Below, in pieces: positions 23,412 through 34,280 of a stretch of DNA of 36,214 bases. The notes beneath the pieces are model-generated. The model was not told the DNA's origin. It did not search any database and was given only the letters and a program-made list of their open reading frames with translations. Numbering within the stretch: position 1 is the stretch's first letter; each line of letters opens with the position of its first letter. This DNA is from an uncultured Bacteroidales bacterium (GTDB taxonomy: Bacteria > Bacteroidota > Bacteroidia > Bacteroidales > UBA932), in NCBI GenBank assembly GCA_900321655.1, contig ONWU01000033.1:1-36214 (forward strand), given 5' to 3'. The position numbers and the translations under genes were made by a program.

Positions 23412-24572
23412 ATGCTGCTGGTCGCCGTCAGTGGAGGCATAGATTCCATGTGCCTGGCAGAAAAGGTCCGTCTGGAAGGCGGGCCTTTCGCCATTGCACA
23501 CTGCAACTTCCACCTGCGGGGAAAGGAGAGCGACGGGGACGAAGCATTTGTGAAGGCCTGGGCCGATGCTAACGGCATACCCTGCCACGTCCGGCACTTT
23601 GAGACATCGGCCTATGCCACGGAGCAAGGGATTTCCGTGGAGATGGCGGCCCGGCGGCTTCGCTATCACTGGTTTGGAGAACTCTGCCGGCAACTCGGCT
23701 ACTCGGGCGTGGCGGTGGCGCACAATGCCAACGACAATGCCGAAACGCTCCTCCTGAACCTCCTTCGCGGCACCGGCATCCGGGGCCTGCTGGGGATGAA
23801 GGCCGAAGGGTTCATCCCGGACCCGGAGTTCAGTGACATCCCCCTTCTTCGGCCTCTTCTGGGAATGACCCGGGTCGAAATCGAGGCCTTCGCCGCAGAG
23901 CACGGTCTGTCCTGGCGGGAAGATGCCACCAACGCCCTCAACGACTTCAAACGCAATAAGATCCGGAACCTGGTCTTCCCCGTCTTCCGGGAAATCAACC
24001 CTTCTTTCGTCCAAACCCTGAACCGGGATATGGAGCGATTCGCAGAGGCCCTTCCTGCGGAAGTACTATCCTCTGAACCTGTGGCCACCCTCGGCCGCAT
24101 CAGAGGGAGGGGCCCGCTGCCCGCAGGGCAGTGGGAGGGACGGAGGGGCGTAGCCCCGGAGGGTTCAGAGGATAGTACTTCCGCAGGAAGGGTCTTCGTA
24201 CACGAAAAGGGCTCTTTTGGTGTACGGGAGATGGAGTTTGAAGTGAAAGAAGAGGTTTGGGACGGGACGAAGGAGGTGAAACAGCCGGCGGGGATGCTGA
24301 TTCTGGATGCGGACAAGGCCGGAGAACTGGTGGAAGGGAGTTGGGAGACGGGAGACTGGATAAGGCCGTTGGGCGCTCCGGGAAAGAAAAAGCTGCAGGA
24401 CTGGTTCACGGACCATCACATCCCGGCCGATGAAAAGCCCTTCGTAAGGCTGTACAAAAGGGCCGATGACCCCCATCACGTGGTGGCCATTGCGGGATGG
24501 TGCATAGACCACAGCGTGCGGGTTACCCAATCCACCCGGCGCATTCTTCGGATTTCCGCAAAAAATGATTAA
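23412..24572 (+). CDS. tilS: tRNA(Ile)-lysidine synthase, with in-frame palindromic insert
   Basis: This 386-residue protein has the ATP-pyrophosphatase loop SGGIDS (7-12), the N-type motif NANDNAETLLLNLLRGTGIRG (105-125), and the C-terminal TilS domain GDWIRPLGAPGKKKLQDWFTD (314-334). TilS joins lysine to cytidine 34 of tRNA-Ile2 so that it reads AUA. ATG 23412 follows the DUF3078 stop by one base and starts directly before the first strand, giving a very short N terminus. The linker between the domains (213-261) is encoded by a 144-base inverted repeat of 48 codons with no stop, and a second stem-loop encodes the next residues, so the two domains remain in frame. This region is rich in Gly, Arg and Pro and unlike ordinary TilS linkers. 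Confidence 0.88.
   Translation: MLLVAVSGGIDSMCLAEKVRLEGGPFAIAHCNFHLRGKESDGDEAFVKAWADANGIPCHVRHFETSAYATEQGISVEMAARRLRYHWFGELCRQLGYSGVAVAHNANDNAETLLLNLLRGTGIRGLLGMKAEGFIPDPEFSDIPLLRPLLGMTRVEIEAFAAEHGLSWREDATNALNDFKRNKIRNLVFPVFREINPSFVQTLNRDMERFAEALPAEVLSSEPVATLGRIRGRGPLPAGQWEGRRGVAPEGSEDSTSAGRVFVHEKGSFGVREMEFEVKEEVWDGTKEVKQPAGMLILDADKAGELVEGSWETGDWIRPLGAPGKKKLQDWFTDHHIPADEKPFVRLYKRADDPHHVVAIAGWCIDHSVRVTQSTRRILRISAKND
24049..24192. repeat. 144-bp palindromic element inside tilS
   Basis: The arms 24049-24079 and 24162-24192 are perfect inverted copies (31 bases each; core GGAAGTACTATCCTCTGAAC). The 82-base centre holds further hairpins: CCCGCTGCCC with GGGCAGTGGG (24113-24135) and GGGGC with GCCCC (24144-24156). 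The length is exactly 48 codons and the reading frame stays open. Both arms and the nested hairpins suggest a REP-like or palindromic mobile element. Confidence 0.88.
24197..24226. repeat. Stem-loop repeat element, copy 2 (inside tilS)
   Basis: CGTACACGAAAA, a six-base loop GGGCTC, then TTTTGGTGTACG. Arms are identical to the copy at 1616-1645, including the single G-G mismatch; the loop there is TGCCTG. It starts four bases after the large palindrome. Confidence 0.85.
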
Positions 24573-34139: not shown

Positions 34140-34280
34140 CCTTGCCGCGTTGCCCGGGAATCGCCGTTCTGCGCCTTGCGGCTGTCAACGCGGCAGGCGA
34201 ATCGGCCCCAGGGCACGTTTTCCTTGCCGCGTTGCCCGAAAATCGCCATTCTGGGCCTTGCGGCTGTCAACGCGGCAGGC
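34140..34280. repeat. Two 59-bp direct repeats with palindromic ends
   Basis: Copies at 34140-34198 and 34222-34280 match at 55 of 59 positions and recur with an 82-base period. Each starts CCTTGCCGCGTTG and ends CAACGCGGCAGGC, so TGCCGCGTTG and CAACGCGGCA pair as a 10-base stem enclosing about 33 bases. The region, 3' of the DoxX-like gene and upstream of the rimP promoter (34106-34322), holds no gene. Confidence 0.85.

Follow-up and report, generated by a model that had tools for sequence, protein, structure and literature searches.

How does a long, exact palindrome come to lie in frame within the gene for TilS, and what keeps its arms paired? The window analysed here is a stretch of 36,214 nucleotides from an uncultured Bacteroidales bacterium. 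It contains the gene for tRNA-Ile lysidine synthase (tilS, 386 amino acids) at positions 23412–24572 of the forward strand, and the frame is open over its whole length, palindromic insert included. On the same strand, the left arm (24049–24079) and the right arm (24162–24192) are exact inverted copies of each other over 31 nucleotides, forming the outer helix P1 and enclosing 82 nucleotides. With its flanks, the inverted repeat measures 34 nucleotides at 97% identity and ranks first in the window. The first-pass annotation had pointed out these arms from the sequence, and both the inverted-repeat scan and the folds bear it out. The palindrome reaches z = -10.8 as RNA and z = -11.4 as DNA, and 0 of 200 shuffled sequences fold equally well in either calculation. 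The same annotation described the insert as 144 bp long, in frame, stop-free and situated in the TilS linker, which agrees with the open frame and the Pfam domain limits. The PP-loop domain (PF01171) covers residues 2–186 and a sub-threshold TilS_C match (19.8 bits against a cut-off of 22) covers residues 312–342, so that the insert, residues 213–261, falls in the linker. The further hairpins that it had noted within the 82-bp centre are also recovered by folding. An assembly artefact, which it had named as a possible source, is unlikely, since the same core is present in dozens of independent assemblies.

The palindrome belongs to a family. A covariance model (E ≤ 1) detected seven copies in the own genome, in tilS (24056–24185, 85.4 bits), truB, mtaB, yggS, ygiQ, trmB and folP; the six other hosts carry the NCBIfam and Pfam names TruB, MtaB, YggS, YgiQ, TrmB and dihydropteroate synthase. 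The count is at least seven, with 150 of 695 first-look candidates scored in an assembly that is 82% complete. All seven copies lie within stop-free open frames, in either orientation, which upholds the earlier proposal that a palindromic repeat family enters genes of this genome. The accompanying expectation that a BLAST of the tilS region and its arms would retrieve this family held for the copies but only partly for the arms. The centre was matched at six other loci. A 25-nt piece of the left arm was matched in the yggS copy, inside an 82% match (query positions 16–76), the inner 9–10 nt of this arm were matched in two copies, and the remaining matches were 19 nt or shorter. The left-arm sequence is thus largely private to the tilS locus. 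A BLAST search with the arms alone would mostly fail, because it is the core that repeats and each copy has outer arms that are largely its own. The products of four of the seven host genes (TilS, TruB, MtaB, TrmB) have tRNA as their target, a share that may be due to chance at this sample size; the available text of PMC3733652 mentions REPs in tRNA pseudouridine synthase genes as well.

The element, arms and core together, is about 105–170 bp long, and its core of about 57–117 nt contains three hairpins, the first pseudoknotted and the second variable. In tilS the core (24080–24161, plus strand, 82 nt) is common to the other copies by BLAST to the six own loci and by the covariance model. Hairpin P2 (TGTGGCC-ACCCTC-GGCCGCA, 24080–24099) is found in the fold and in the covariation of 21 relatives. 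Its loop sequence CCCTC (24088–24092) is complementary to GAGGG (24103–24107), giving a pseudoknot that spans 24088–24107. The variable hairpin P3 (24113–24135) differs among copies in stem sequence and length while its pairing is kept, and hairpin P4 (GGGGC-GTA-GCCCC, 24145–24157) closes the series in the fold. When just CCC and GGG were fixed and orthologous copies were counted separately, the two pseudoknot strands were exactly complementary in 185 of 187 distinct elements, in the versions CCCTC/GAGGG (173), CCCGT/ACGGG (7), CCCCC/GGGGG (4) and CCCGC/GCGGG (1); one of the two exceptions is a G.T pair. Such covariation in the pseudoknot points to recognition of the fold by some molecule.

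The arms pair while sharing little sequence. For the covariation analysis, orthologues were excluded and the elements were filtered by arm score, core length and the letters at the junctions; of the 56 that passed, 53 were aligned, and the 21 in one register were used. In these 21 sequences 97.3% of the cells are paired. At 23 of the 24 arm pairs at least one sequence differs on both sides; the pseudoknot does not vary within this set. The covariation score is 0.628 versus 0.172 after shuffling, with 0 of 500 shuffles as high and slid versions reaching at most 0.122. Arm statistics were taken from the best inverted repeat around the core in 122 elements from the loci that matched an exact core pattern, of which 95 were kept (score ≥14); because the 27 elements with short or decayed arms were dropped, the pairing figures are biased toward pairing. 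In these 95 elements the paired fraction is 0.89–1.00 at positions 1–18 and 0.75–0.84 at positions 19–24, then falls to 0.60, 0.58 and 0.43 at positions 25–27 and to 0.21–0.38 from position 28. Of the first 24 positions, 16 carry less than 0.3 bit of sequence information, and almost none is left at positions 11, 24 and 25. Information rises to 0.5–0.64 bit at positions 6–8 and 16–17 and is highest, 0.63–1.27 bit, at positions 1–3 on the core side. Arm length is thus nearly fixed, at about 24–28 bp, and arm sequence is nearly free and differs between copies. The element is defined by its fold more than by its sequence.

The exact core pattern has at least 120 matching stretches among GTDB genomes, and among the matches listed all 80 titles are Bacteroidales or Bacteroidia assemblies, many of them named for ruminants. 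In the genus of the window, which may be Cryptobacteroides of GTDB, it is present in 27 of 61 genomes, and the backward control gave zero. The covariance model (E ≤ 1e-4, at most 61 candidates scored per genome) found 1–38 copies in 50 of the 61 genomes, 608 in total, with a median of 11 among the positives. Across the order, two of 149 genomes contained the exact pattern, namely the own genome and a member of another genus in the same family, and the covariance model had matches in 2 of 99, the own and G426 of another family. The G426 copy (L354) carries the second pseudoknot type and has no P4 hairpin, and the family may be wider than the exact core pattern implies. No match was found in phages, nor in viral contigs with three core patterns, and a phage or viral carrier was rejected on this ground. 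In Rfam 15 the window copy yielded just matches to miRNA models that stay well short of the cut-off, the best scoring 36.8 of 196 bits (E 1e-4), and none of 11 loci had an element match at gathering score; a known RNA family was therefore rejected. We did not find the family described in the literature on palindromes in Bacteroidales or Bacteroidetes genes, in a search that covered subscription papers thinly, so that this absence is no proof.

Copies sit in both orientations, within and between genes. By a simple rule, 77 of 122 elements are in an open frame and 45 are not, compared with 526 of 610 draws of random stretches from the same loci; the element is therefore also intergenic, and is found in genes more rarely than by chance. 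One of the six frames is open over arms and core in 0 of 95 elements, as it always contains a stop, and the remaining five are each open in 49–63 of the 95. All five are used by the 48 long host frames, so that frame-preserving insertion is probably tolerated as a linker or loop peptide. The tilS copy would be a passenger, with 48 predicted residues added to the linker, and no benefit to the host need be assumed.

How arms of nearly free sequence remain complementary can be examined in elements that occupy the same site in related genomes. We compared 15 filled pairs, seven of which were scored at 26 positions each (182 arm positions). Twenty-one positions had changed on both arms and 18 on one, whereas about five double changes would be expected if the arms varied independently (27 left and 33 right changes in 182). 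Three pairs contribute 19 of the 21 double changes: L068/L125 (8), L032/L052 (6) and L083/L093 (5). L056/L143 and L094/L146 have one each, and L048/L118 and L100/L111 have single changes only. With zero or one double change in four of the seven scored pairs, in-place correction is not constant. Most of the eight unscored pairs have arms whose shortness or divergence prevents alignment, and the members of L034/L105 are in different genes; in some of these pairs new arms at the same host site may represent a second insertion. Since the arms cannot be aligned at several shared sites, repeated independent insertion and in-place rewriting are not separable there. The available text of PMC8604942 describes template switching between inverted repeats in yeast genes that homogenises the arms and inverts the spacer, and a further precedent for hairpin maintenance is given in the available part of PMC8794818.

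The mismatches that persist between the arms are asymmetric. In element orientation, with 12 orthologous copies left out, G.T and T.G occur 26 times versus 5 for A.C and C.A (binomial p 2e-4), a count weakened by the shared ancestry of copies. The excess is made up almost entirely of G on the left arm opposite T on the right (21 versus 2 A.C), with T.G found 5 times and C.A 3 times. In host-gene sense, the 46 elements in long host frames have 6 GU, 11 AC and 11 other mismatches, without a G.U excess. One reading of the G.T excess is that the folded plus strand would be the form that matters.

These data bear on whether the arms are instead kept paired by selection on RNA structure in each copy, as a regulatory or processed RNA, rather than by template switching. 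The strong helix covariation and the covarying pseudoknot would be expected under such selection, as would the surplus of G.T (26) over A.C (5) in element orientation, as if the plus strand had to fold. However, the coding strand has no G.U excess in the 46 elements, copies occur in both orientations in unrelated genes, and clusters of double changes are found inside loci that are otherwise 82–92% identical. We consider this explanation unlikely, and RNA-level selection in host mRNAs specifically was rejected because the coding strand lacks a GU excess.

A second alternative concerns the enzyme. RAYT-type (Y1) transposases of the genus could mobilise the copies, which would then be large REP-like elements. 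Y1_Tnp matches of RAYT size are present in 46 of the 61 genomes of the genus, and their presence is associated with the element: 43 genomes with and 7 without Y1 among those with copies, versus 3 and 8 among the others (Fisher p 2.5e-4, rank correlation 0.52). By the exact pattern the corresponding counts are 26/1 versus 20/14 (p 7e-4). This co-occurrence is, however, confounded by kinship and genome completeness, and in the 2–3 kb around each of ten Y1 genes, two of them in the own genome, the element core adjoins none. We judge this alternative improbable to the same degree. Several of the ten Y1 genes have other hairpins on both sides; the RAYT-type genes L346, L349, L352 and L353 are flanked by 28–39-nt hairpins of their own, e.g. 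AATCCTCGTTC..GAACGAGGATT. No autonomous partner was recognised by eye in the ORFs of five regions, of which four have two or three closely spaced copies and the fifth has one. Neither the Y1 loci nor these five regions revealed a mobilising enzyme, and no transposition event was observed.

Sites without the element show where its ends are. The 21 locus pairs chosen for this comparison yielded three clean empty sites, which have 2, 3 and 8 nt in place of the 132, 139 and 152 nt of the filled state. One of the empty sites lies in the window itself (2930–2936), after an ORF read as dnaN, where the relative L098 carries a copy. L088, a second relative of the first clean site, has 25 nt there, taken for host sequence. 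A fourth site of the empty type has 51 versus 156 nt at 92% flank identity. Of the other pairs, several have no core but are too divergent around the site to be read, and the rest are filled. In the surroundings of another copy, the element is absent from one site in four relatives and from a second site in two, and two carry there an element with other arms and the opposite core orientation. Neither arm is present at any of the clean empty sites, and no direct target-site duplication is visible at them, with flanks just 71–92% identical. The absence of both arms indicates that they are part of the element and not a target duplication. Similar arms were moreover found in L034 and L105, in two different host genes, which indicates that the arms travel with the core.

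This result decides against an inverted target duplication made at insertion, in which one arm would be host sequence and the other its copy. The arms are indeed locus-specific and perfect in many copies, and the outermost 4–8 nt of one arm resemble host sequence at two sites (L100_7097 and G019 site 2), which may reflect a palindrome growing into its flank. But both arms are missing from the clean empty orthologous sites, a weak arm consensus is held at a fixed distance from the core, and L034 and L105 have similar arms in different genes, so that we regard such a duplication as very improbable. It had first been suggested by the locus-private arms and the half-host look of FolP and TrmB, whose orthologues are too distant from the own copies for arm origin to be judged, and was ruled out by the empty sites.

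The history of tilS itself can be followed among relatives. TilS matches are present in 60 of the 61 genomes of the genus, and 343 of 400 genomes searched match at E ≤ 1e-60. G215 shows the highest identity (87% over residues 1–223), and G122 is 80% identical over 384 residues. In 48 TilS linkers, the own included, the core is found in window orientation in 7, reversed in 11 and not at all in 30, the last as judged by a motif search that may overlook altered cores. Relatives are thus not simply without the insert, whose absence the first-pass annotation had proposed to check by aligning orthologues. The G215 linker retains the left arm of the window at 31 of 32 positions, followed by CTCCGGAAGGGC and no core. 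In G122, a reverse-oriented core lies between two CCCTCCGG repeats, and deletion between such repeats yields the G215 state; the core and most of the right arm of G215 have apparently been lost through deletion between these 8-bp direct repeats.

The right arm of G122, G215 and L245 has a signature of its own. In the window, the right arm carries the left-arm signature instead, and the core points opposite to those of G122 and L245. A single hairpin template switch would explain both the rewriting of the right arm and the inversion of the core. We infer that the tilS right arm was probably rewritten from the left in this way, judging by about four diagnostic positions and among core subfamilies that differ. 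Since the core is found either way round in these linkers (7 and 11 of 48), either orientation may be ancestral.

That the palindrome arose by chance in an ordinary lineage-specific TilS linker has a negligible probability, for all that this linker is highly variable within the genus, given folds below z = -10 and further copies, six in the own genome and hundreds across the genus.

Other insertions are found in the same region. The palindrome is adjoined by a second, unrelated REP-like hairpin repeat of 31–35 nt (TCGTACACGAAAA...TTTTGGTGTACG), in frame in tilS at 24196–24226 on the plus strand. BLAST finds it at nine further places in the genome, including 1615–1645 of the window, and it is also present in the TilS orthologue of G215. 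The TrmB and TilS linkers of the relatives L183, L185, L190 and L154 contain another in-frame palindromic repeat, of the ATTTCGAGCGAAGC...GAGAAATC type, and L185 seems to carry two elements side by side. Low-complexity inserts (VDQVQ repeats and His-rich stretches) occur in the TilS linkers of L257, L260, L262, L304 and L310. Given such varied inserts in relatives, the linker seems to accumulate insertions in general. Elsewhere in the window, a third repeat is present in two copies that are 93% alike (34140–34198 and 34222–34280), with palindromic ends GCCGCGTTG...CAACGCGGC, and a peptide resembling its translation was seen near the start of L012.

The best explanation, which we hold to be likely, is a non-autonomous mobile palindromic element that is defined by its fold and whose arms are re-paired by template switching, with the tilS copy as a passenger. 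A trans-acting activity would recognise and move the folded single strand. After insertion, template switching by a DNA polymerase in the hairpin would copy one arm onto the other and could also invert the centre. Such copying would restore pairing while the sequence drifts, and it may have rewritten the right arm in tilS. It is possible, as a more tentative extension, that the element is inherited as a fold: a pseudoknotted core within a helix of free sequence, one arm being copied from the other in each cycle or replication, with a plus-strand RNA or single-stranded DNA as the moving form and a continuing supply of new in-frame peptides in housekeeping genes as a result. The excess of G.T over A.C in the plus strand is consistent with a folded plus strand, RNA or single-stranded DNA, that moves.

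In-frame selfish palindromes are best known from Rickettsiales. Within a family of Rickettsia palindromic elements the arm sequence is conserved, in contrast to the arms described here, which have less than 0.3 bit of information at 16 of 24 positions. RPE-1 to RPE-3 and the Wolbachia palindromic elements are interspersed, about 100–150 bp long and repeatedly in frame at tolerant positions of housekeeping genes, according to the available parts of PMC10969869, PMC3767692 and PMC3733652, and RPEs are reported to lose arm identity over time in the portion available of PMC6649704, with reference to Claverie and Ogata 2003. The present family is alike in being a palindrome of ~100–150 bp with many copies (7 in the own genome and 608 in 61 genomes), inserted in frame in unrelated genes. 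It differs from those descriptions in the unrelated organism, the covarying pseudoknot core and the little arm sequence common to the family. It works like the Rickettsia palindromic elements but is distinguished from them, as described, by the pseudoknot and by arms with almost no fixed sequence.

REPs of the GTAG/CGTC type are 20–40 bp long and carry a tetranucleotide tag. Like these REPs and their RAYTs, the element is a small palindrome that is sometimes intragenic (as REPs are in the available text of PMC3733652). At about 105–170 bp it is several times longer, and unlike RAYT-linked REPs it flanks no RAYT among the ten Y1 loci. MITEs have conserved ends that match a transposon, and they generate a direct target duplication. 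The element resembles them in being short and non-autonomous, with inverted-repeat ends and no conserved ORF of its own, but its ends are hardly conserved and no autonomous partner was seen in the five regions. Retron ncRNAs have a structured core between sequence-variable complementary arms; this architecture is shared, whereas the copies described here lie within unrelated genes. Long perfect palindromes in coding genes are also known from nematomorph mitochondria, where they are proposed to be kept by template switching in the available text of PMC6649704. There both arms are host sequence, in contrast to the inserted element family found here.

This large gut-associated genus, whose genomes carry up to dozens of copies each, offers natural insertions, empty sites and orthologous pairs by the hundred. 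With these one can study how inserted peptides are accommodated by proteins and what keeps palindromes perfect. Since the arms are weakly constrained in sequence and yet paired, the family is a natural experiment on selection for structure as opposed to mutation by template switching, the separation of which is a long-standing problem in reading covariation. The fold recognition suggested by the pseudoknot makes the mobilising activity a concrete target.
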